A DNA stretch of 34,296 bases from NCBI RefSeq assembly GCF_000787855.1, contig NZ_BBPQ01000003.1, positions 169,914-204,209 on the forward strand, written 5' to 3'. The translations under genes and the position numbers were made by a program. Source of the stretch: Streptacidiphilus anmyonensis. Lineage in GTDB: Bacteria > Actinomycetota > Actinomycetes > Streptomycetales > Streptomycetaceae. The notes below the pieces were generated by a model. It was given only the letters and a program-made list of their open reading frames with translations. It did not search any database and was not told the origin of the DNA. Shown piece after piece: positions 20,640 through 34,237 of this stretch. The stretch's first letter is position 1, and each line of letters opens with the position of its first letter.

Positions 20640-20800
20640 CGCGGGGCGTGCGGAGGACGAGACGGAGCCGGGGACCCACGTCCCCCGGGGTGAATCGGCA
20701 TCAGGGCGACTGCGACGCGTGCGTGCACGCGAGGTGGCCGTGAGGTGTCGTAGGGCGAGACTTCCGGCCCGAACCCGTCAGCTCACCCGGTAGACGGCCA
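20640..20800 (+). promoter_or_regulatory. c-di-AMP riboswitch (ydaO/yuaA class)
   Basis: The leader contains the conserved core blocks of the ydaO class in order: GGAGCCGGGGACCCA (20664-20678), GGGGTGAATC (20687-20696), AGGGCGA (near 20752) and CCGAACCCGTCAGCT followed by CACCCGG (20769-20790). These match the class as known from Streptomyces cell-wall hydrolase genes and Bacillus ydaO. The 5' boundary (P1 strand) is uncertain and could lie nearer 20600. It directly precedes an NlpC/P60 endopeptidase, the classic actinobacterial target. High c-di-AMP is expected to switch expression off. Confidence 0.88.
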
Positions 20801-20820: not shown

Positions 20821-21831
20821 GTGGCGTCCCACCGCCGTCCCGCCGCGCCCAGTCGCACCCGTACCCGAATATCCGCGCTCACCGTCGTCGCCGCCACCAG
20901 CGTCGGCCTCGCCACGCAGTCGGCGCAGGCGGCCCCGCAGCCCAGCACCTCCCAGCTGAAGTCGCAGCTCGACCAGCTCAACGGCCAGGCGGACAAGGCG
21001 ATCGAGGCGTACAACCAGGCGCAGGCGCAGCAGCAGCAGCTCCAGCAGAAGGTCTCGATCCTCCAGGACGAGATCGCGCGGAACCAGGCGAAGGCGAACC
21101 AGCTCCTGGACAGCGTCGGCGCGATCGCCCAGAGCCAGTACGCCTCCGGCGCGGTCGACCCGACGGTTCAGCTGATGCTCACCAGCAACCCGGGGGAGTT
21201 CCTGCAGAAGGCCTCCTCCATGAACCAGCTGACGAGCAACGAGGCGTCCCAGCTGAACCAGCTCCAGGCCGAGGAGGACACCCTCGCCAAGGAGAAGGCC
21301 GAGGCCGAGCAGGAGCTCCAGGCCCTCCAGGCCCTCACGCAGAAGGCCCAGGCGCTGAAGAACTCGGCGGCGGCCAAGGTCAAGGCGACCCAGAAGCTGC
21401 TCGACTCCGCCACGGCGAGCCAGCGCACCGCCCTGGTCGGCGGCACCGGCAGCAACCTCCACTACGGCGGCGCGGCCGGCGACTCCATCGAGGCCGCGGC
21501 CTTCGCGGCCGCCCAGACCAAGATCGGCTCCCCCTACCACTGGGGCTCGACCGGTCCGAGCGAGTTCGACTGCTCCGGCTTCATGATGTGGTCCTACGAG
21601 CAGGCCGGCTACCAGCTCGGCCGCGACACCTACGCCCAGATGGGCGACGGCACCCCCGTCGCCTCCGTCTCCGACCTGCGCGTGGGCGACCTGGTCTTCT
21701 TCAACGGCGGCGAGCACGTGGGCATGTACGCCGGCAACGGCATCGTCCTGCACGCCCCGCACACGGGCGCGGTGGTGCGCTACGAGTCGATCTCGACGAT
21801 CGGCTCGATCTACATGATGCGGCACATCTGA
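20821..21831 (+). CDS. Secreted NlpC/P60 peptidoglycan endopeptidase
   Basis: A 336-residue secreted cell-wall hydrolase. It has a Sec signal peptide (RTRTRISALTVVAATSVGLATQSAQAA, cleavage near residue 38) and a long Gln/Ala-rich coiled coil (about 42-200), as in RipA/PcsB-type hydrolases. The NlpC/P60 domain follows, with catalytic Cys251 in FDCSGF, His299 in GEHVGMYAG and third residue His311 in VLHAPH. It cleaves D-Glu-DAP type stem-peptide bonds. The start is GTG 20821 with AAGGAG upstream. Expression is under a c-di-AMP riboswitch, linking wall remodelling to osmotic or envelope signalling. A strong hairpin terminator follows. Confidence 0.95.
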   Translation: MASHRRPAAPSRTRTRISALTVVAATSVGLATQSAQAAPQPSTSQLKSQLDQLNGQADKAIEAYNQAQAQQQQLQQKVSILQDEIARNQAKANQLLDSVGAIAQSQYASGAVDPTVQLMLTSNPGEFLQKASSMNQLTSNEASQLNQLQAEEDTLAKEKAEAEQELQALQALTQKAQALKNSAAAKVKATQKLLDSATASQRTALVGGTGSNLHYGGAAGDSIEAAAFAAAQTKIGSPYHWGSTGPSEFDCSGFMMWSYEQAGYQLGRDTYAQMGDGTPVASVSDLRVGDLVFFNGGEHVGMYAGNGIVLHAPHTGAVVRYESISTIGSIYMMRHI

Positions 21832-24973: not shown

Positions 24974-26110
24974 TCAGTTCTGGCGCAGCGGCGGCATCGG
25001 CACGGGGGCGCCGTAGGTGGAGGACCCGACGCCGACGCCGCCCTGGCAGCTGTCGGGCGGGTCGGTGGTGACGCCCTTGGTCGAGGGCGTCTCCGCCGCC
25101 CAGAACATGTAGCCGAGCATGCCGGGGGTGGCGCCCGCCCCGGCGGGGGCCGCGCTCTGGACCCACGAGCCGGTGCTGTCCTCCACCGAGGTCGAGAAGC
25201 TGGTGCACTCGGGCCGGACCGAGGAGCCCTCGGCGATGTAGAGGCTGCCGGTGAACTTGGCCGGGGCCAGCGGCGGGATCGGCGGGTTGTAGGTGGGCTT
25301 GCCGGTCAGGTGCTCCTGCCAGTTGGACTCGGCCGAGGAGGCGTTCGGCTGCTTGCTCGGCACCATGGCGTTGGCGTAGTCGAGCACGGGGCTGCCGGTG
25401 GTCAGCCAGTTCGCGGTCGCGTACTGGGTGAGGCCGACCAGCCAGCGGTCGCCCGCGGCGAGGTCGATGGTGAGCCGCGCGGTCGGGTCCGCGCCGGTGG
25501 CGTCGTAGGGGTGGACCGCACGGTAGGCGGAGACGAAGGACTGGAGACCCGTCAGGTTCGGGCTGGAGGAGTTCTCGTAGTCGATCTCGATGCCGACGCC
25601 GAGCTGCGTCGCGAGCGCCGCGGCCTTCTGCCCGAGCAGGGTGGGGTTCTGCGCGAGGGCGGTGTCCCAGTCGTTGACGTAGGTGATGCCGCCGATCGAG
25701 AGCATCACGCGGATGCCGTGGCTGGTGAAGTAGTCGACGATCGCCTGGGTCATCCCGTTCGGGACGCCGTTGGTGTCGCCGGCGTCTGTGGTGCCGTCCA
25801 GCAGGCGCAGCGGGTTGACGAAGCTCAGCACGACGAGGTTGACGGAGGGGTGGCCGTCGCCCCGGTCGATCAGCCAGTGGTTCTTCTGGTCGAAGTCCGT
25901 CATGTCGCGGACCGTCGCCCAGGTGCAGGCGTCGTCGGAGCAGTGCCAGGCGCCGTACACCTGGATGGGGCTGGTGGCTGCTGCGGCCCCGCCCGCGGCA
26001 GCGGTCCTCGGGGCGGCTTGCCCCGGGACGGCGCCGCCGAGGGCGGCGGCCGCGAGGGCGAGGGTTCCGGCGGCGAGCAGGGTGGGGGTTCTGCCAACGT
26101 GCATGCGCAT
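24974..26110 (-). CDS. Secreted GH18-like (chitinase-type) protein
   Basis: A 378-residue secreted protein. A signal peptide ends near AVPGQAAPRTAAA. The rest reads as a GH18-type TIM barrel: IQVYGAWHCSDD, VNLVVLSFVNPL, GIRVMLSIGGIT (the SxGG motif of strand 3) and VGIEIDYEN, corresponding to the DxxDxDxE catalytic motif. Only the last Asp and the catalytic Glu are conserved; Gly and Glu replace the earlier Asp positions. A C-terminal MLGYMFWAAE matches the strand-8 Trp region. It probably binds or cleaves chitin or peptidoglycan-like glycans. ATG 26110 has GGGAGG upstream. It is divergent from the TetR gene. Confidence 0.75.
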   Translation of the reverse strand: MRMHVGRTPTLLAAGTLALAAAALGGAVPGQAAPRTAAAGGAAAATSPIQVYGAWHCSDDACTWATVRDMTDFDQKNHWLIDRGDGHPSVNLVVLSFVNPLRLLDGTTDAGDTNGVPNGMTQAIVDYFTSHGIRVMLSIGGITYVNDWDTALAQNPTLLGQKAAALATQLGVGIEIDYENSSSPNLTGLQSFVSAYRAVHPYDATGADPTARLTIDLAAGDRWLVGLTQYATANWLTTGSPVLDYANAMVPSKQPNASSAESNWQEHLTGKPTYNPPIPPLAPAKFTGSLYIAEGSSVRPECTSFSTSVEDSTGSWVQSAAPAGAGATPGMLGYMFWAAETPSTKGVTTDPPDSCQGGVGVGSSTYGAPVPMPPLRQN

Positions 26111-26223
26111 CCACGCCTCCCGGCGAAGAGGGCTCGACAGGTCGCCCCAAGGGTGGTGACGCGCACCAGGCCTGTCAATGGTACGGACCAATCCCTGCCC
26201 GGGTGGAGGTCGACCGAGCTGCG

Positions 26224-26239
26224 GACTGCATTTTCAGTC
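26224..26239. promoter_or_regulatory. TetR operator, copy 1
   Basis: Imperfect palindrome GACTGCATTTTCAGTC, 45 bases before the TetR start. Its reverse complement matches the palindrome at 29290-29305 in 15 of 16 positions. It lies just upstream of the TetR -35 region (-10 TAAGGT at 26270-26275), so it fits autoregulation. Confidence 0.75.
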
Positions 26240-26283
26240 AGTCTCTTCGTCGGCGACCGATCACACGTGTAAGGTGCCGGATT

Positions 26284-26868
26284 ATGGCCGACCGTAGAAC
26301 GACGATGCTGGAAGCGGCCGCCCGGGTCATCGCCCGGCGGGGGGTCCGCGGGCTGCGGGTGGAGGAGCTCGCCGCGGAGGCCGGGGTCTCCACCGCGCTG
26401 ATCTACTACCACTTCAAGAACCGTCAGGGCATCCTGCGGGCCACCCTGGACTTCATCAACGACCGGGCCGGCGTCTACACCACCGACCGCGATCCGGACG
26501 CCCCGCCGCTCGACGCGCGCGGCGAGTTGGAGCAGACCCTCCTGCTCGAACTCCAGGACAGCCCCCAGGTGCGGGAGAACAGCACCGCCTGGGGGGAGCT
26601 GCGCGCGAGCGCGGTCTTCGACCCCGACCTGCGGGAGGACCTGGCCCGCGCCACGCTCGTCTGGGACCAGGAGATCGCCGAACTGCTGGGCAAGGTGCAC
26701 CCGACGGCCGGAGCCGGCGCCCTGGCGCAGGCGGCGGAGCGGCTGACGGCCCTGCTGGAGGGGCTCAGCACGCGGTGGCTCAGCGGCAGCCTCCCGCTCT
26801 CCCACGCCAGGACGCTCATGGCGGAGGCGATCGAGGTGGAGCTGTCCCGGCTGAGCCGGGCGGTCTGA
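26284..26868 (+). CDS. TetR-family regulator of the deiminase cluster
   Basis: A 194-residue regulator. The N-terminal helix-turn-helix is RTTMLEAAARVIARRGVRGLRVEELAAEAGVSTALIYYHFKNRQGILRATLDFI, typical TetR. The remaining helices form the ligand-binding and dimer domain. ATG 26284 follows TAAGGT by 8 bases with no Shine-Dalgarno, so the message may be leaderless. A 16-bp palindrome before the gene recurs in the deiminase promoter at 29290, which makes it very likely the repressor of both. The inducer is unknown; agmatine, another guanidino compound or a polyamine is a reasonable guess from the target genes. Confidence 0.93.
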   Translation: MADRRTTMLEAAARVIARRGVRGLRVEELAAEAGVSTALIYYHFKNRQGILRATLDFINDRAGVYTTDRDPDAPPLDARGELEQTLLLELQDSPQVRENSTAWGELRASAVFDPDLREDLARATLVWDQEIAELLGKVHPTAGAGALAQAAERLTALLEGLSTRWLSGSLPLSHARTLMAEAIEVELSRLSRAV

Positions 26869-26885
26869 CCCGGCCCGGATTCCCC

Positions 26886-26915
26886 CGACCTCGTTCGACC
26901 TCGGTCGACCTCGCT
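26886..26915. repeat. 10-bp tandem repeat, three copies
   Basis: Three units of the form CGACCTCGNT occupy 26886-26895, 26896-26905 and 26906-26915, between the TetR gene and the convergent deiminase, touching the latter's stop codon. Confidence 0.65.
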
Positions 26916-28105
26916 CAGGACTGGGCCGGGGTGCCGGGCTGGTCGTGGGTGGAGCAGTGGATGCCGCCGCCGCCCGAGGCGATGTTGTCGATGTTCAGGG
27001 CGACGACGTCGCGGTTCGGGAAGTGGTCGCGCATGATCTGCTGGGCGTTGGCGTCCGCGTCCCCGTCGCCGAACTTGGGGATGAACACCGCCCCGTTGGC
27101 GACGAAGAAGTTGATGTAGGAGGAGACGAAGGCGTCGCCCCGCCCGGTGATCCTGTCCGGGTCGGGCTCCTGGACCTCGATGACCTGCAGCGGCTTCCCG
27201 CGCGCGTCGGTGGCCTGGCTCAGGACGTCCTTGGCCTGGGCCGCCGCCTCGGACCACACGTCGGCCGGGGCGCCGGGGAAGGGCTTGTCGAGCAGGACGA
27301 CGCCGGGGCCGGCGAAGCGGACCAGGCAGTCGACGTGGGCGTCGGTGATGTCCTTGCCCTTGACGCCCTTGAGCCAGATCACCTTCGTCACGCCGAGGGC
27401 CTTCATCAGCTCGGCCTCGATGTCGTCGCGGCTCATGTCCGGGTTGCGGTTGTCGTTGACCACCGAGCTCTCGGTGACGAGCAGGGTGCCCCGGCCGTCG
27501 GTCTCGAACGCGCCCCCCTCCGCGACGACCGGGGTCTGGATGCGCGGTATCCCGTACTTGGTGAGCAGGGCCGCGGCGAGGGCCGAGTCGTCGCCGTGCT
27601 CCTTCTGCTTCCCGCCCCAGCCGTTGAAGTTGAAGTCGACGCCCTTGAGCGTGCCGCCATCGTGGACGAAGACGGGGACGGTGTCGCGGGCCCACAGGTC
27701 GTCCACCGCCAGCGGCACGACCTCGACGCTGTTGCCGACCGCCGTCTGCGCGTCGTCGGCCTGCTCGGGACGGGCGAACATCACCACCGGCTCGTAGCCC
27801 GCGACCGCGCGGGCCAGCCGCGTGATGTCGGAGCGCACGCCGGGGAGCTGGTCGCCCCAGACGTTCGTGGACGCGGGCCAGCTCATGAAGGTCCGTGCGT
27901 GCGACTCCCACTCGGCGCCGAAGACCCGGCCGCCGGTCCCGCCGGTCCCGCCGGTCCCGCCCGTGGACGCGGTCGCCGAACTCATGCCGCCGGCCTGGCC
28001 GCTGCCGCGCGAGGCCGAGGAGGAGCAGGCGGCGGTTCCGAAGGCGAGCAGGCCGAGCCCCGCGAGGGACTGCAGCATCATGCGTCGGGACATGGCAGAG
28101 GTCAT
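26915..28105 (-). CDS. Agmatine deiminase/PPAD-family lipoprotein (copy 1)
   Basis: A 396-residue member of the PAD_porph (agmatine deiminase and Porphyromonas-type peptidylarginine deiminase) family. It hydrolyses a guanidino group to a ureido group plus ammonia. The N-terminus MSRRMMLQSLAGLGLLAFGTAAC is a Tat-like (SRRMML) signal with lipobox Cys27, then a Gly/Thr linker. Catalytic motifs are intact: DDLWARD 135-141, EGG 196-198, HVD with His257 and Asp259, and nucleophile Cys384 in GGGGIHCST. So it should be an active enzyme on the outer face of the membrane. ATG 28105 has CAGGAG upstream. It follows copy 2 by 63 bases, under the TetR-controlled promoter at 29279-29307. Confidence 0.92.
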   Translation of the reverse strand: MTSAMSRRMMLQSLAGLGLLAFGTAACSSSASRGSGQAGGMSSATASTGGTGGTGGTGGRVFGAEWESHARTFMSWPASTNVWGDQLPGVRSDITRLARAVAGYEPVVMFARPEQADDAQTAVGNSVEVVPLAVDDLWARDTVPVFVHDGGTLKGVDFNFNGWGGKQKEHGDDSALAAALLTKYGIPRIQTPVVAEGGAFETDGRGTLLVTESSVVNDNRNPDMSRDDIEAELMKALGVTKVIWLKGVKGKDITDAHVDCLVRFAGPGVVLLDKPFPGAPADVWSEAAAQAKDVLSQATDARGKPLQVIEVQEPDPDRITGRGDAFVSSYINFFVANGAVFIPKFGDGDADANAQQIMRDHFPNRDVVALNIDNIASGGGGIHCSTHDQPGTPAQS

Positions 28106-28168
28106 GGATCAGCACTCCTGGGCAGGGCAGGGCAGAGCAGGAAGGAGGAAGAAGGGAAGGGCCGGGCG

Positions 28169-29248
28169 TCAGGCGCGGGGCTGCTGCATGGTCGAGCAGT
28201 GGATGCCGCCCCCGCCGGCCATCAGCCGGTCGACGTCCAGCTGGACGACCTCGCGGCCGGGGAAGGCGGCGGCCAGGGCCTGCCGGGCCTCCTCGTCCTT
28301 CACCACGTCGCCGAACTGGGCCGTGACGACACCGCCGTTGACGAGGTGGAAGTTCAGGTAGGAGTCCACGAAGGTGGACTTGCGTGAGCGCACCCGCTCC
28401 GGGCCGTCGACGCGGATCACCTGGAGGCGGCGTCCCCGGGCGTCGACGGCACTCTCCAGGAGCGCCAACTGCTCGCGGGCGTCGCGCGCCCACACGTCGT
28501 GCCGGTCGGCGGGCGGCACCTGGACCATGACGACGCCGGGCCGCACGAAGCGGGAGGTCACGTCGATGTGGTCGTCGGTGATGTCGCGGCCCTTGACGCC
28601 CCGGACCCAGATCATGCGGTCGGCCCCGTAGGCGTCCAGCACCGCCCGCTCGATCTCGTCGCGGCTCATGCCGCGGTTGCGGTTGCGGTTGACCAGGCTG
28701 CTCTCGGTGGCCATCACGGTGCCGTCGCCGTCGGTCTCGACCGCCCCCGCCTCGCCGACGAACGCGGCCGCCTCGAACGGCAGGCCCTCGCGGGCGGCGA
28801 CCGCGCGGGCCACGGCGGCGTCCCGGTCGTGGGCCTGCTTGCGGCCCCAGCCGTTGAAGTTCAGGCCGACCGCGTCGAGGGAGCCCCGCGGGGTCCGGCG
28901 GAAGGCGGCGCAGGTGTCGCGCATCCACAGGTCGTCGGTCGGGATGGAGCTGATCACCTCGACCCGGTCGCCGCACAGGGCGCGGGCGGCGACGGCGGCG
29001 CGCTCGTCCGGGGCGCACAGCGTCACCGGTTCGAAGCGGGCGACGGTCCGCGCGATCAGCGCGATGTCCTGCTGGACGCCGTCCAGTTGCCTGCCCCAGA
29101 CGGAGCGCGAGGCGGGCCAGGACATCCAGGTGCGGGCGTGCGGCACGTCGTCGGCCTCGACGCGCGCCCGCGGCCCCGCCGGGATCGTCTCCTCGGGCTG
29201 CTGCGGCGCGCCGAAGAGGCGGCCGAACAGGGAGCGCGGGTCGTTCAT
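28169..29248 (-). CDS. Agmatine deiminase/PPAD-family protein, cytosolic (copy 2)
   Basis: A 359-residue paralogue without signal peptide or membrane segment, of the size of classic agmatine deiminase (AguA). Motifs: DDLWMRD 105-111, DITDDHID with His227 and Asp229, Cys351 in GGGGIHCST. The usual EGG is EAG here (166-168). The N-terminal 35 residues are a variable extension. It is the first gene of the leftward transcript, with GGAGG before ATG 29248. By location it could act on imported or internal agmatine (to N-carbamoylputrescine), while copies 1 and 3 act outside. Whether the substrate is agmatine, arginine peptide or another guanidine cannot be settled here. Confidence 0.92.
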   Translation of the reverse strand: MNDPRSLFGRLFGAPQQPEETIPAGPRARVEADDVPHARTWMSWPASRSVWGRQLDGVQQDIALIARTVARFEPVTLCAPDERAAVAARALCGDRVEVISSIPTDDLWMRDTCAAFRRTPRGSLDAVGLNFNGWGRKQAHDRDAAVARAVAAREGLPFEAAAFVGEAGAVETDGDGTVMATESSLVNRNRNRGMSRDEIERAVLDAYGADRMIWVRGVKGRDITDDHIDVTSRFVRPGVVMVQVPPADRHDVWARDAREQLALLESAVDARGRRLQVIRVDGPERVRSRKSTFVDSYLNFHLVNGGVVTAQFGDVVKDEEARQALAAAFPGREVVQLDVDRLMAGGGGIHCSTMQQPRA

Positions 29249-29278
29249 GGGGGCCTCCGGACGTTCGACGACAGTCCC

Positions 29279-29307
29279 ACAGTGGCATCGACTGAAAATT
29301 CAGTCAA
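29279..29307 (-). promoter_or_regulatory. Deiminase promoter with overlapping TetR operator (copy 2)
   Basis: On the minus strand, TTGACT (29307-29302), a 17-base spacer and CACTGT (29284-29279) form a promoter about 31 bases before ATG 29248. The palindrome GACTGAAAATTCAGTC (29290-29305, arms GACTGAA/TTCAGTC) covers most of the -35 and spacer, the classic position for a repressor. A TAGGGT at 29364-29369 could be the -10 for the rightward copy 3. Confidence 0.78.
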
Positions 29308-29437
29308 GCGAGCCCCTCGCCCACTCGGCCGAAGTCCGACAAGAGGGCCACGCCGTCCGGACATAGGGTCCGAAGAGCAGCGACACGATGAAGCAGCACG
29401 ACGGGACGCCGTCGGGACGCCGTCGAACGGGGCAGCC

Positions 29438-30640
29438 ATGCACCACTCCAGCCTGACCCGCCGGACCCTCCTGCGCACCGGGGCCGGGCTCGCCGCCGCT
29501 GTCGTCCTGGCCGGGTGCAGCTCCAGTGGCGCGGACTCCGGCGCCTCCGACTCGGGCTCGTCCGGCCCAGGGGGCGGCGGCACGGACGCGCCCGGCGCGG
29601 CCGCCCAGGGCGCGTCCGCCTCCGGCTACGCGATGCCCGCCGAGCAGTTGGAGCACGAACGCACCTTCATGGCCTGGCCCGCCCTCGCCGAGGTCTGGGG
29701 CGACCAGCTCCCCGACGTCCGCACCGACATCGCCAACCTGGCCCGCGCCATCGCCCAGTACGAGCCCGTCGTGCTCATGGCCCGGCCTGACCAGGCCGAC
29801 CAGGCGCAGCAGCAGGTCGGCAACAGCGTCGAGGTGATCGCGCTCCAGGTCGACGACCTGTGGGCGCGCGACACCGGCCCCACCTTCGTCACCGGACCGT
29901 CCGGACTCGCCGGGGTCGACCTGAACTTCAACGGCTGGGGCGGAAAGCAGACCCACGCCGACGACGCCCACGTGGCCGCGAACCTGCTGGCCCACTACGG
30001 GATCCGGCGCATCCAGGCCCCGATCACCGGCGAGGGCGGCGCGATCGAGGTGGACGGCGACGGCACCCTCATGGCGACCGAGAGCTCCCTGGTCAACGCC
30101 AACCGCAACCCGGGCCGCAACCGCGACGAGATCGAGGCCGACCTGAAGTCCCTGTTCGGCGTGAGCAAGGTCATCTGGTTCCAGGGCGTCGCCGGCAAGG
30201 ACATCACCGACTGCCATGTCGACGCCCTGGCCCGTTTCGTCACCCCCGGCGTCGTCGCCCTCCAGCGCCCCGGCCCCGGCGCTCCGCCCGACATCTGGTC
30301 CGCCGCCTCCGACCAGGCCCTCTCCGTCCTCCGGCAGGCCACGGACGCGCGGGGCCGCTCGCTGCGCGTCGTGGAGATCACCGATCCGGACCTCGACCAG
30401 ATCCCGGGCGCGGGGCAGGACTTCCTCGCCACCTACCTCAACTTCTACGTCTGCAACGGCGCCGTGATCGTGCCCCGCTTCGGTGACCGGCAGGCCGACG
30501 ACAAGGCCGTCGCCACCCTGCGCGACCTGCACCCCGACCGCGACGTCGTCCAGGTGTCCATCAACGCCATCGCCTCCGGGGGCGGCGGCATCCACTGCTC
30601 CACCCAGCAGCAGCCCACGACGGGCGCGGCGTCCTCGTGA
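29438..30640 (+). CDS. Agmatine deiminase/PPAD-family lipoprotein (copy 3)
   Basis: A 400-residue exported paralogue. The N-terminus LTRRTLLRTGAGLAAAVVLAGC is a twin-arginine lipoprotein signal (TRRTLL, lipobox LAGC with Cys27), followed by a Ser/Gly-rich linker to about residue 65. Catalytic motifs: DDLWARD 139-145, EGG 199-201, CHVD with His260 and Asp262, Cys387 in GGGGIHCST. It is more like copy 1 than copy 2 (WGDQLPxVRxDI, GVDxNFNGWGGKQ), so the two lipoproteins look like recent duplicates. ATG 29438 has only a weak GGGG Shine-Dalgarno. It overlaps the DUF4436 gene (GTGA), and is divergent from copies 2 and 1 across the TetR operator. Confidence 0.92.
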   Translation: MHHSSLTRRTLLRTGAGLAAAVVLAGCSSSGADSGASDSGSSGPGGGGTDAPGAAAQGASASGYAMPAEQLEHERTFMAWPALAEVWGDQLPDVRTDIANLARAIAQYEPVVLMARPDQADQAQQQVGNSVEVIALQVDDLWARDTGPTFVTGPSGLAGVDLNFNGWGGKQTHADDAHVAANLLAHYGIRRIQAPITGEGGAIEVDGDGTLMATESSLVNANRNPGRNRDEIEADLKSLFGVSKVIWFQGVAGKDITDCHVDALARFVTPGVVALQRPGPGAPPDIWSAASDQALSVLRQATDARGRSLRVVEITDPDLDQIPGAGQDFLATYLNFYVCNGAVIVPRFGDRQADDKAVATLRDLHPDRDVVQVSINAIASGGGGIHCSTQQQPTTGAASS

Positions 30641-31509
30641 GGCTGCCGCGCCGCCGCAGGATCCCGCGGTACGTCCTGGTGCTGGCCCTGGTCGCCGTGC
30701 TCTGCGGCACCGGCATCGGCCTCTACCTCAACGAGCGCAACAGCCGCCAGCAGGTCAGCGTCGTGGGCAACCCCACCGCCGAGGACTGGATCGAACTCGA
30801 CGTCACCGCCCAGGGCGTGGACACCTCCGCCCTGGAGCTGTCGCTCTCCGTCGTCGCCATCCCGCACGGGAGCCTCGCCGCGGAGCCGGACTCCCTGGTC
30901 TTCACCCGTGACGTCGAGATCACCTCCGTGGGCCTGACGACGTCGTCCTTCCACACCACGCCGGGAGACGTCGCCCCGCTCCAGGTCGTCACGGCCGGGC
31001 TCAACAACGGCACTCCCACCGACTATCCGTTCGACCACTACGACGTCTCCGCCGGCTGGGTGGCCACCGACCAGGGGCGGCCCGTCCCGCTGTCGCTCAC
31101 CTACACCGACTCCGACCCGTTCTTCCTGGTCCGCCCCACCAAGTCGGCCGCCGGCGGCACCGTCGCGCGGTTGGACGCGCGGGCCGGGCGGACCCGGGCC
31201 ACCTTCATTCTGGCCTGGTTCATGATGGCGGCCATGTGGGCGCTGGCCCTCGCCGTCCTCGGCGGCGCGGAGGTCCTCGCCCGCAAGCGCCAGGGGGTGG
31301 TCTGGCCGGCGCTGGGCTGGATGGCGGCCACCCTGTTCGCCCTGGTCGGGCTGCGCAACGCCGCGCCCGGAGGGCCGCCCATCGGCTCGTTGATGGACTA
31401 CGTCGCCTTCTTCTGGGCCGAGGGCATCATCGCCGCCAGCCTGGCCGTCACGGTCGCCCTCGCCGTCCGCAACGAGCGCCGCGACATGGCCGCCGACGGA
31501 AGCCGGTAA
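30637..31509 (+). CDS. DUF4436 membrane protein
   Basis: A 290-residue membrane protein with one N-terminal segment (YVLVLALVAVLCGTGIGLYL), a ~155-residue external beta-rich domain (about 35-190), then three or four C-terminal segments (FILAWFMMAAMWALALAVLGGAEVLA, VVWPALGWMAATLFALVGL, YVAFFWAEGIIAASLAVTVALAV). The LxxAAPGGPPIGSLMDYVAFFWAE block is typical of DUF4436, whose function is unknown. GTG 30637 overlaps the stop of deiminase copy 3 (GTGA), so the two are translationally coupled and probably work together at the membrane, perhaps as anchor, sensor or transporter for the product. Confidence 0.88.
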   Translation: MRLPRRRRIPRYVLVLALVAVLCGTGIGLYLNERNSRQQVSVVGNPTAEDWIELDVTAQGVDTSALELSLSVVAIPHGSLAAEPDSLVFTRDVEITSVGLTTSSFHTTPGDVAPLQVVTAGLNNGTPTDYPFDHYDVSAGWVATDQGRPVPLSLTYTDSDPFFLVRPTKSAAGGTVARLDARAGRTRATFILAWFMMAAMWALALAVLGGAEVLARKRQGVVWPALGWMAATLFALVGLRNAAPGGPPIGSLMDYVAFFWAEGIIAASLAVTVALAVRNERRDMAADGSR

Positions 31510-31774: not shown

Positions 31775-34237
31775 ATGAGACGATCCGCCCCGCCGTCGCC
31801 CACCACCGCACGACGCACGTCCCGGCCACGCCCGGCGACCCTCGCCGCCGCCGCGCTGACCGCGCTGGCCGCCGCCGTCACGCCCGCCCTCGTCGGGCCC
31901 GCCCAGTCCGCCTCGGCCGCCACCCAGAGCGCGAACCTGCTGCTCAACGGCAACGCCGAGACCTCGCAGTGCAGTCCGGGCGGCTGGGAGGAGACCACCG
32001 TCCCCGGCTGGCAGATCACCTCCGGCGACCCGGTCGTCAACTGCTACGGCGTGCCCACCGGCGCCTCCACCAGCACGCCGGGCTCGCCGACCAAGGGCAC
32101 CGCCTACTTCCAGGGCGGCTCGCGCGGCTCCTCCGAGATGACGCAGGCCACCGACGTCTCCTCGGCCGCCACCGCGATCGACGCGGGCGGCGTCCACGCC
32201 ACCCTCTCCGCCTGGCTCGGCGGCGTCAGCAGCTACAACGACGCCGCCGCGGTCACCATCACCTACCGCAACGCCGCCGGCGCCTCGCTCGGCACCGCCT
32301 CGATCGGCCCGGTGCTCGCCGCCGACCGCGGCAGCACCACCGAGTTCCTCCAGCGCAGCACCACCGCGGCCGTGCCCGCGGGGACCCGCTCCATCCTCAC
32401 CACCGTCGACTTCACCATGACCGGCACCCAGAACGACGGCATGGCCGACGACCTGTCCCTCACCCTGGACACCCCGACCACCGCACCGACGCTGAACGTG
32501 CCCGCGTCGACGGTGCCCGGGTACGACCACGTCTTCGTCGTGATGATGGAGAACAACAACTACTCCGCGTCCTCCAACACCGCCGACGGCGGCGCGGGCA
32601 TCATCGGCAACTCCAGCGCGCCCTACATCAACAACACCCTGGTGCCGATGGGCTCGCTGCTGACCAACTACCACGCCAACACGCACAGTTCCGACCCGAA
32701 CTACGAGGCCATCGCGTTCGGCAACTCCTACGGGCGCAGCAACAACAGCAACCCCGGCGCCGACTGCATCACCAACACCGCCTGCGCGGCGACCAACAAC
32801 GGCCTCAACGACAACCTCGACGCGGCCGGCAAGAGCTGGAAGCAGTACGTCCAGAGCCAGACCAGCAACTGCCAGACCGGCAACAGCGGCAACTACGAGT
32901 CCGACGACGTCCCGTTCTACTACGACCCCAAGATGCAGAGCGACAACGCCTACTGCCAGGCGCACTGGCAGCCGCTGCCGCAGCTGCTGAACACCGACCT
33001 CAAGTCGACGTCCACCACTCCGGCCTTCGTCTGGGCCGACGCCGACTCCTGCAACGACATGGAGGGCTGCGGCATCGCCGCCGGCGACACCTGGCTCAGC
33101 CAGACGCTGCCGACCCTCTTCGCCTCCCCGGCCTGGACCCAGCAGAAGTCCCTGCTGGTCCTCACCTGGGACGAGGACGGCAGTGGCGGCCCCGGCGGCT
33201 TCGGCCCCGGCCAGAGCAACCAGGTCGCCACGATCGTGATCGGCTCGCAGGGCACGGTGAAGGCCGGCTACCAGGACGCCACCCGCTACGACCACTACAG
33301 CACCGCCCGCGTCATCGAGGGCGCGCTCGGCCTGCCGAGCATGACCAACAACGACAAGTGGGCCACCCCGTACAACGAGGTCTTCACCGGCGCCCAGTCG
33401 GGCGGCAACACGGTGACGGTCACCAACCCCGGCAGCCAGACCGCGACCGCGGGCACGGCGATCTCCTCGCTCCAGCTCGCCGGCAGCGACTCGGCGTCCG
33501 GGCAGACCCTCAGCTGGTCGGCCACCGGCCTGCCCGCCGGACTGTCCGTCAGCAGCTCCGGCGCGATCACCGGGACGCCGACCACGGCAGGCACCTACCA
33601 GGTGACCGCCACCGCGACCGACGGCACCGGCGCGTCCGGCTCGGCGGGCTTCACCTGGACGGTCGCCGCCTCCGGCACGGCGTTCCAGCTGCCGATCGCC
33701 AACCCGGGCGCGGAGACCGGCTCCTGCGGCAGCGGCACCGGCGGCTACCCGGCGCAGGCCTGGACCGCCACCTCCAACCTGCCGCAGCAGGTCTGCTACG
33801 GCGCGCCGTCCTACCCGACCACCGCCCAGGGCCCGAAGGCCCCGGCGACCCCCGGCAACGCCTTCTTCGACGGCGGCCCCTACGCGTCCTCGCAGATGAC
33901 GCAGACGGTCGACGTCAGCAGCCAGGCCGCGCAGATCGCGACCGGCACCCTGCCCTACAACCTCTCGGGCTGGATCGGCGGCTACAGCAGCCAGGGTGAC
34001 AAGGCCGGCGTCGTGGCGACGTTCCTGAACGCCTCCGGCACCTCCCTCGGCACCGCCACCCTGGCCCCCGTCACGGCGGCGCAGCGCAGCAACCAGACGG
34101 AGCTGCTCCTGGAGCAGGCCACCGGCACCGTCCCGCAGGGCACGACGTCGGTGAAGTTCACCGTCTCCTTCACCCGCTCGGCCGGGACCGACGACGACGG
34201 CTACGTCGACGACCTCGGCATGACGTTCGGCAGCTGA
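31775..34237 (+). CDS. Secreted phosphoesterase with flanking duplicated domains
   Basis: An 820-residue exported enzyme. A long signal peptide ends near residue 49 (SASAA). Residues ~52-232 form a beta-rich domain (NLLLNGNAET ... DGMADDLSLTLD). The phosphoesterase domain (acid phosphatase/phospholipase C-like, PF04185) spans about 248-545: DHVFVVMMENNNY with Asp251, Glu259 and Asn260, HSSDPNYEAIAFG, LLVLTWDEDG and DHYSTARVIEGALGLP. A putative Ig-like domain follows (about 555-645, AGTAISSLQL, GLPAGLSVSSSGAITGTPTTAGTY). The last ~165 residues repeat the first domain (PIANPGAET ... DGYVDDLGMTF). The flanking copies are probably glycan- or surface-binding. ATG 31775 has AGAAGGA upstream. Substrate may be a phosphomonoester or phospholipid. 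Confidence 0.92.
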   Translation: MRRSAPPSPTTARRTSRPRPATLAAAALTALAAAVTPALVGPAQSASAATQSANLLLNGNAETSQCSPGGWEETTVPGWQITSGDPVVNCYGVPTGASTSTPGSPTKGTAYFQGGSRGSSEMTQATDVSSAATAIDAGGVHATLSAWLGGVSSYNDAAAVTITYRNAAGASLGTASIGPVLAADRGSTTEFLQRSTTAAVPAGTRSILTTVDFTMTGTQNDGMADDLSLTLDTPTTAPTLNVPASTVPGYDHVFVVMMENNNYSASSNTADGGAGIIGNSSAPYINNTLVPMGSLLTNYHANTHSSDPNYEAIAFGNSYGRSNNSNPGADCITNTACAATNNGLNDNLDAAGKSWKQYVQSQTSNCQTGNSGNYESDDVPFYYDPKMQSDNAYCQAHWQPLPQLLNTDLKSTSTTPAFVWADADSCNDMEGCGIAAGDTWLSQTLPTLFASPAWTQQKSLLVLTWDEDGSGGPGGFGPGQSNQVATIVIGSQGTVKAGYQDATRYDHYSTARVIEGALGLPSMTNNDKWATPYNEVFTGAQSGGNTVTVTNPGSQTATAGTAISSLQLAGSDSASGQTLSWSATGLPAGLSVSSSGAITGTPTTAGTYQVTATATDGTGASGSAGFTWTVAASGTAFQLPIANPGAETGSCGSGTGGYPAQAWTATSNLPQQVCYGAPSYPTTAQGPKAPATPGNAFFDGGPYASSQMTQTVDVSSQAAQIATGTLPYNLSGWIGGYSSQGDKAGVVATFLNASGTSLGTATLAPVTAAQRSNQTELLLEQATGTVPQGTTSVKFTVSFTRSAGTDDDGYVDDLGMTFGS

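Follow-up and report, generated by a model that had tools for sequence, protein, structure and literature searches.

A stretch of 34,296 nucleotides of the 9.39-Mb genome of Streptacidiphilus anmyonensis (positions 169914-204209 of contig C151; referred to as the window) contains three side-by-side genes coding for PF04371 deiminases (copies 1, 2, and 3), a gene coding for a TetR-family regulator, and a gene coding for a DUF4436 membrane protein. Sequence comparison indicated that this locus is a satellite of a bigger cluster found in five genera, in which deiminase units are accompanied by members of one TetR family, a 16-bp palindrome, an Opp-type importer, and, in most loci, ureAB-ureC. It is fairly probable that the window represents a satellite of a TetR-controlled regulon for the use of agmatine or a close guanidino compound in Streptomycetaceae.

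Operator sites and the TetR regulon

The palindrome GACTGAAnnTTCAGTC was found ahead of the TetR gene and between copies 2 and 3 (Table 1), the chance expectation being 0.04 occurrences in the window at up to two mismatches. With one mismatch allowed, the pattern GACTGNATTTTCAGTC retrieved three sites genome-wide, namely both window sites and one on contig C44. The latter contig also codes for a paralogue of the window TetR (71% identity); another paralogue occurs on contig C108 (78%), and the TetR of Sciscionella is 46% identical. A scan of the 14 genomes of the genus, again with one mismatch, yielded 20 distinct operator sites in eight genomes, 17 of which adjoin PF04371 genes (hand count; one of them, G005:C38, at about 1.8 kb) and three of which lie away from such genes (one in G009, two in G011). 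Six of the seven cluster-free genomes lacked any site. Similarly, 51 sites with at most one mismatch were found in 19 cluster loci (356 kb, L043 being excluded owing to frameshifts) versus a mean of 0.0 in 20 Markov controls, and none in 25 core aguA loci (485 kb; 24 with ureAB-ureC). Among 394 class genomes, the perfect palindrome occurred 15 times in 13 genomes. Within the family, all ten sites stand beside genes of the system, two of them being those of the source genome from which the motif was drawn; outside the family, none of the five does, two being near a distant TetR-like gene (29-30% identity).

In relatives as well, the operators precede the TetR gene and the deiminase units. This arrangement, in which TetR and deiminase genes are neighbours and their promoter regions contain a palindrome, is of the AguR type. 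The window, the genus, the cluster loci, and the class genomes all support the idea, put forward in the original prediction, that the TetR gene and the deiminase units form one TetR regulon. Further Tat deiminases (carrying a signal for twin-arginine translocation, Tat) with their own TetR gene (78% identical to that of the window) and weak operators with two mismatches were seen in L013 (7264-9321), L017, and L023.

The larger cluster in the genome, the genus, and other genera

Contig C44 carries, besides the TetR gene, genes coding for a deiminase of the agmatine deiminase (AgD) type without signal (PADc), an SBP_bac_5 binding protein, two permeases, two ATPases, and a Tat deiminase; the contig opens with 75 bases belonging to the start of ureAB. 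Within the genus, PF04371 genes were present in 14 of 14 genomes and the accessory set in seven (G000, G001, G003, G005, G006, G009, and G013). The order in S. fuscans (L018) is ureC, ureAB, copy 1, copy 2, operator, TetR, operator, PADc, binding protein, two permeases, two ATPases, copy 3, DUF4436, a second TetR type, and a Tat deiminase without lipobox. Copy 2 is broken in this locus, L016 retains DUF4436 as a remnant, and L020 is frameshifted; L019 misses copies 1 and 2, the urease standing at the corresponding operator, and the genome of L015 has copy 3 and DUF4436 elsewhere (L021).

Beyond the genus, the best 80 of 138 PADc relatives from a scan of genome contigs were surveyed. PADc and the importer occurred together in 20 loci, four of which were Streptacidiphilus genomes seen again and the remainder of which belonged to Kitasatospora, Streptomyces, Yinghuangia, and Streptantibioticus. 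The Opp-type importer, TetR, and at least one operator were present in 20 of 20, ureAB-ureC in 13, and DUF4436 in five, once as a remnant. Cluster loci contained one to four exported deiminases, within stretches of at most 21 kb. All five importer subunits scored below the cut-off of every NCBIfam family listed, NikABCDE and Opp included (for the ATPases, among the best 25 matches). At E 1e-130, which leaves the frameshifted G013 undetected, PADc was present in 56 of 394 family genomes, representing seven of 17 genera. A copy-1-like protein was present in 84 of 394 at E 1e-105, a level at which copy-3 types are counted as well. In 49 of the 56 PADc genomes (hand count), a copy-1 or copy-3 type gene shares the contig with PADc at a distance of no more than about 8 kb; the source genome is among the other seven. 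Cluster, operator, and synteny can be considered solid on the basis of these comparisons. Co-conservation of TetR, two to three PAD_porph genes, and DUF4436, which had been proposed as a check, held for the deiminases and TetR and in part for DUF4436; the latter was found in 27 of 121 family genomes, 11 of which have it next to a gene of the copy-1 or copy-3 type (hand count). Conserved synteny and operators led to rejection of a chance adjacency in one strain, an explanation with no point in its favour and a negligible probability. Among the literature matches listed, no description of the cluster was found, in agreement with the earlier remark that no system of this layout had been described.

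A Ser/Thr kinase gene was also seen in the cluster (L011:7840-9378, L025, L028, L029, L030, L034, and L041), preceded by an operator in L030, L034, and L041.

Deiminase genes, export signals, and phylogeny

Copies 1, 2, and 3 scored 354, 318, and 367 bits, respectively, against the PF04371 profile (curated cut-off 25 bits), and alignment displayed in each of them the Asp, Glu, His, Asp, and Cys positions that we take to be the catalytic ones of this family. Conservation of these positions was complete among the aligned sequences of the exported clade (68 of 68) and of the AgD type (36 of 36, two solved chains included). Copy 3 shares 62% identity with copy 1 across 333 residues and 47% with copy 2 across 329 residues. 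This confirmed three side-by-side deiminases with their catalytic residues beside TetR and DUF4436; the adjacent trio is real, but the genome holds seven PF04371 genes in total, spread over four contigs. Copies 2 and 1, likely a pair, run leftward and are convergent with the TetR gene; the intergenic region from which they start is also the origin of the rightward unit of copy 3 and DUF4436. A single operon for the window genes was rejected, as there are two divergent units. A promoter and terminator scan returned no promoter-like site and one terminator-like site versus 0.8 expected.

Table 1. Positions of the deiminase genes, the associated genes, and the operator sites in the window
Feature	Position	Strand	Description
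Operator 1 (GACTGCATTTTCAGTC)	26224-26239		44 bases before TetR start codon; one mismatch to GACTGAAnnTTCAGTC
TetR-family regulator	26284-26868	+	TetR_N and TetR_C_6 domains
Copy 1 (PAD1)	26915-28105	-	396 aa; PF04371 deiminase; predicted Tat-exported lipoprotein
Copy 2 (PAD2)	28169-29248	-	359 aa; PF04371 deiminase without signal; exported-clade member
Operator 2 (GACTGAAAATTCAGTC)	29290-29305		perfect palindrome in divergent promoter region; upstream of copy 2 by 41 bases and of copy 3 by 132
Copy 3 (PAD3)	29438-30640	+	400 aa; PF04371 deiminase; predicted Tat-exported lipoprotein
DUF4436 membrane protein	30637-31509	+	195 bits

The N-termini of copy 1 (MTSAMSRRMMLQSLAGLGLLAFGTAAC) and copy 3 (MHHSSLTRRTLLRTGAGLAAAVVLAGC) display a Tat motif and a lipobox-like Cys; copy 3 has a clean lipobox, that of copy 1 (TAAC) being less canonical. 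These signals (twin arginine, hydrophobic stretch, and Cys) were judged by eye, and automatic Tat labels were discarded because upstream read-through gave false labels for PADc and PAD2 rows. The twin arginine was visible in 14 and the Cys in 15 of 17 copy-1 rows, the remaining rows being cut or unclear; in Kitasatospora relatives of copy 3, the Cys is preceded by DG or EG, a weaker lipobox. Twin arginine, hydrophobic stretch, and Cys being kept in orthologues, copies 1 and 3 are predicted to be Tat-exported lipoproteins. No export signal was present at the N-terminus of copy 2, so that the distribution of signals claimed originally was borne out by the N-termini as read. A 9-base tandem repeat (window 27930-27961) codes for a Gly-Gly-Thr linker that follows the copy-1 lipobox.

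A deiminase tree of 105 sequences was built from the window and 39 of 104 loci, matches below 850 bases being left out, with a quick method that gave long-branch warnings and the Shimodaira-Hasegawa-like approximate likelihood ratio test (SH-aLRT) as sole support measure. One side of the tree was of the AgD type, with three solved agmatine deiminases, core AguA, and PADc (branch SH-aLRT 100); the other, exported side comprised copies 1-3 and two further Tat types (68 rows, support 100). Orthologues of copy 1 formed one clade (support 100), as did those of copy 2 (support 98). Copy 2 orthologues of S. goshikiensis (L029) and Yinghuangia (L038) start with Tat-type signals, and another from Yinghuangia (L039) has a twin-arginine start in the portion shown. 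Because it is nested in the exported side and its orthologues carry Tat-type signals, copy 2 is probably a former exported enzyme that lost its signal. An independent cytosolic lineage was rejected in view of the tree and the signals of the L029 and L038 orthologues; the claim of a cytosolic copy 2 holds as far as the missing signal is concerned but not as a separate cytosolic lineage. Only one column diagnostic of AgD-type versus exported-type sequences passed the filter (Ser217 versus Cys) and therefore no substrate could be read from the sequence.

Substrate and proposed pathway

An agmatine-type pathway is plausible on the basis of profile scores and gene neighbourhoods. A profile built from all seven PF04371 proteins of the source genome gave 339 bits with solved agmatine deiminases versus 55 bits with the peptidylarginine deiminase of Porphyromonas gingivalis (PPAD). 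Outside Streptomycetaceae, an AguB homologue was found within 3 kb in 32 of 35 relatives, the three others being Paracoccaceae, and a urease of the cluster type within 12 kb in none of the 35. Inside the family, the numbers were 0 of 45 for AguB and 37 of 45 for the atypical urease; the eight relatives without urease consist of four loci cut by the contig end (L026, L027, L034, and L040), a weak fragment (L055), and three full-length loci (L029, L032, and L039). The Sciscionella locus (L083) presents a series of TetR (46%), perfect operator, cytosine/purine-type permease, AguB homologue, and AguA. Agmatine is favoured because of this series and the AguB adjacency outside the family. This is in line with AguR of Pseudomonas aeruginosa, a TetR-family repressor of aguBA whose repression is lifted by agmatine, as excerpted from its description (PMC4287709). 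An AguB-like gene occurred in 13 of 14 genomes of the genus (255-265 bits, none over the cut-off); it was set aside as belonging to pyrimidine/hydantoin catabolism, given the aminotransferase-like and dihydropyrimidinase-like neighbours in L105 (read by eye in one genome).

By analogy with AguR, TetR would repress the regulon until a guanidino effector, most likely agmatine, binds. The exported deiminases, with copies 1 and 3 as surface lipoproteins, would convert guanidino groups into ureido groups and ammonia outside the membrane, the importer would bring in substrate or product, and the non-exported deiminases (AgD-type PADc and copy 2) would act inside the cell. Finally, a urease-family enzyme would remove the last ammonia from urea or a ureido product. 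Compartment and enzyme chemistry are predictions in this scheme, with which the staged handling of a guanidino compound proposed originally is compatible, as the cluster contains an importer, signal-less AgD-type deiminases, and often a urease. If true, a regulon in which exported deiminases are joined by an importer and a urease of a distinct subfamily would represent a novel means by which soil bacteria obtain nitrogen from guanidino compounds, possibly from the agmatine of plants and neighbours.

Alternatively, copies 1 and 3 could be peptidylarginine deiminases that citrullinate surface or foreign peptides, as had also been suggested, in the manner of PPAD or of the Streptomyces citrulassin deiminase. 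The Opp-type importer family takes peptides, and export to the surface would suit such a role. According to excerpts of the respective reports, a Streptomyces peptidylarginine deiminase acts on the lasso peptide citrulassin (PMC8498205, PMC9266682, PMC12971885), and PPAD is an extended agmatine deiminase (PMC8826395), whereas copies 1-3 end with the PF04371 domain. The latter lack a C-terminal extension and are not closer to PPAD than to agmatine deiminases (55 versus 339 bits as above); their neighbours are transport and ammonia-release genes, and the co-regulation of urease would be left unexplained. Citrullination is thus quite unlikely.

Still a little less likely is a pathway for free guanidine, in which a PF04371 enzyme would form urea and ammonia and the linked urease would complete the degradation. 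Urea is the direct product of a deiminase for guanidine only, and a combination of GdmH, an ABC importer, and urease is a known design (PMC12186494, as excerpted). Against this stand the guanidine riboswitch scan, which was negative in the window, L011, L017, L028, and L046, and the exported copies, which would release urea outside the cell. Moreover, we know of no PF04371 member that takes guanidine.

Several observations weigh against agmatine use by a TetR regulon of which the window is a satellite. The window locus itself has no importer and no urease; both lie on contig C44, which begins inside ureAB, and no cluster-type ureC was found in the assembly of the source genome. Seven of the 20 cluster loci are without such a urease, three of them full-length (L029, L032, and L039). 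Two family genomes with a copy-1-like match (G141 and G151) lack the perfect palindrome in the draw of 394 class genomes. The exported clade forms a deep separate branch in the tree and may therefore act on a substrate other than agmatine. Only one instance of the full Sciscionella arrangement was seen, its AguB scoring 192 bits versus a cut-off of 410. The distribution of agmatinase, for which five of 14 genus genomes gave no match (one being 76% complete), does not follow that of the cluster. Lastly, copies 1, 2, and 3 (256, 220, and 273 bits, respectively) are below the TIGR03380 equivalog cut-off of 381.8. This cut-off is of little informative value here because the AguB-linked relatives L042 and L083 (307 and 262 bits) miss it too, as does core AguA of the genus (320 bits).

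The atypical urease

The ureC of the cluster and of the core ureAB-ureC-aguA operon has intact nickel ligands, at the positions we take these to occupy. Compared with two canonical ureC of the genus and one solved urease, PQ is changed to PR, GGGxGP to GQEFGP, HEDWG to HEDMG, HTDxLNE to HxDGLNE, GAGGGHAPD to GCGGGHVPN, VCH to S[AV]H, and SDSQAMG to SDAQGMG. These changes were read from 35 sequences, one of which has a gap at the flap and a few of which have small variants; 18 further sequences from outside the family were more variable. Five cluster and core ureC (626, 638, 643, 634, and 585 bits) stay below the TIGR01792 cut-off of 680 bits, which canonical ureC of the genus exceed (863 and 867 bits), and belong to the broader subfamily PRK13207. 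Of the 18 ureases of this kind from outside the family, 10 are encoded no more than about 3.3 kb from an AgD-type deiminase, whereas an AguB match was found near none of the 18.

Tentatively, and with rather low probability, the urease-family enzyme, with its changed pocket and flap residues, may have replaced AguB in Streptomycetaceae and some other actinobacteria and cleave N-carbamoylputrescine or a similar ureido product of the linked deiminases, in an agmatine pathway that would begin outside the membrane with those deiminases that act at the surface. If so, the family-model name "urease subunit alpha" would be misleading across a large group. Ordinary urea cleavage by the atypical urease is possible; agmatinase, a source of urea, scored above its cut-off in seven of 14 genus genomes, the source genome included, which argues against a new activity.

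The same agmatinase count fits an unlikely alternative, namely a regulon that releases ammonia under pH or nitrogen stress by switching on the deiminases together with an ordinary urease, urea being supplied by agmatinase or the environment and the nature of the substrate being of secondary importance. The genus name Streptacidiphilus refers to acid tolerance, and the urease shares the operator in many loci. In addition, AgD pathways have been proposed to serve acid resistance in acidophiles (PMC9543262, as excerpted). The cluster is, however, also present in Kitasatospora, Streptomyces, and Yinghuangia and absent from seven of 14 genus genomes. Cytosolic buffering needs neither an importer nor surface lipoproteins, pocket residues set the urease apart from canonical ones, and five of the 14 genus genomes combine an AgD-linked urease with no agmatinase match.

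Transport genes were also seen beside such ureases. In a small actinobacterial genome (L132), one of the eight outside the family without a nearby AgD-type deiminase, the atypical urease stands beside an apparent spermidine/putrescine ABC importer (read by eye); an ATPase match occupies the corresponding position in L133 and L134. A cytosine/purine-type permease gene like that of L083 is divergent from ureAB-ureC-aguA in 11 of 12 core operons (L110-L121; same family, g9).

The DUF4436 protein

The DUF4436 start and the copy-3 stop share four bases (GTGA), which makes translational coupling of both genes, as originally proposed, plausible. The low-confidence structural model, based on five sequences (mean predicted local distance difference test score 67), consists of one N-terminal helix, a beta domain, and three C-terminal helices. 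Nearly all of the best 50 Foldseek matches were pentameric ligand-gated channels, the best with an E value of 5e-8, at template modelling scores of 0.2-0.4 and root-mean-square deviations of about 10 or more. An invariant stretch, TDYPFDxY, presumably recalls the loop motif (PFD) of these channels. No sequence match to a solved protein was obtained (best E value 0.53). A resemblance to pentameric ligand-gated ion channels, with a beta domain followed by helices and the PFD motif, is hence a low-confidence lead from the model. In the pathway for agmatine or a close guanidino compound, DUF4436 might be an accessory membrane partner of copy 3, perhaps a sensor.

Comparison with known systems

The described agmatine deiminase pathway consists of the pair AguA-AguB, according to excerpts (PMC4287709, PMC9543262). 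The window and aguBA/AguR of P. aeruginosa have in common a TetR-family gene with a deiminase unit, but aguBA comprises a deiminase and AguB, and the excerpted account mentions neither export nor urease nor importer (PMC4287709). In P. aeruginosa PA14, agu2ABCA' is likewise a second, accessory agmatine operon, tied to environmental agmatine; it differs in that it occurs in about 20% of the isolates screened, and urease and surface lipoproteins are not mentioned in the excerpts (PMC4287709, PMC4211729). The guanidine pathway of Synechocystis also involves ABC import, hydrolysis, and urease, but GdmH is a Ni-dependent arginase-family enzyme under riboswitch control, as excerpted (PMC12186494), in contrast with PF04371 and TetR here. 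PPAD, matched by the same seven-protein profile, differs by its score (55 versus 339 bits), its extension (PMC8826395, as excerpted), and its action on peptidyl-arginine.

The core ureAB-ureC-aguA operon of Streptomyces and Streptacidiphilus (L046-L070, L073, L077, L106, and L107) combines an AgD-type deiminase with the same atypical urease. It differs by the absence of the window-type operator in 25 loci and of matches to exported deiminases or the Opp importer, save one weak ATPase match (L060). As for export in the other systems, PPAD of P. gingivalis is exported; a Tat signal is presumably present on Agu2A' too, although it was not found in the excerpts of the two reports on that operon.

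Other features of the window

Upstream of the deiminase region, a c-di-AMP (cyclic di-AMP) riboswitch (20667-20791; 49 bits, gathering threshold 38) lies directly before a gene coding for an NlpC/P60 protein (20821-21831), and 24974-26191 (minus strand) codes for a secreted-looking protein of 405 aa without Pfam or NCBIfam match at E 1e-3. After DUF4436, a phosphoesterase-family protein with an Ig-like domain is encoded (31775-34237); in S. jiangxiensis (L021), a gene 85% identical to it follows the same pair of copy 3 and DUF4436.

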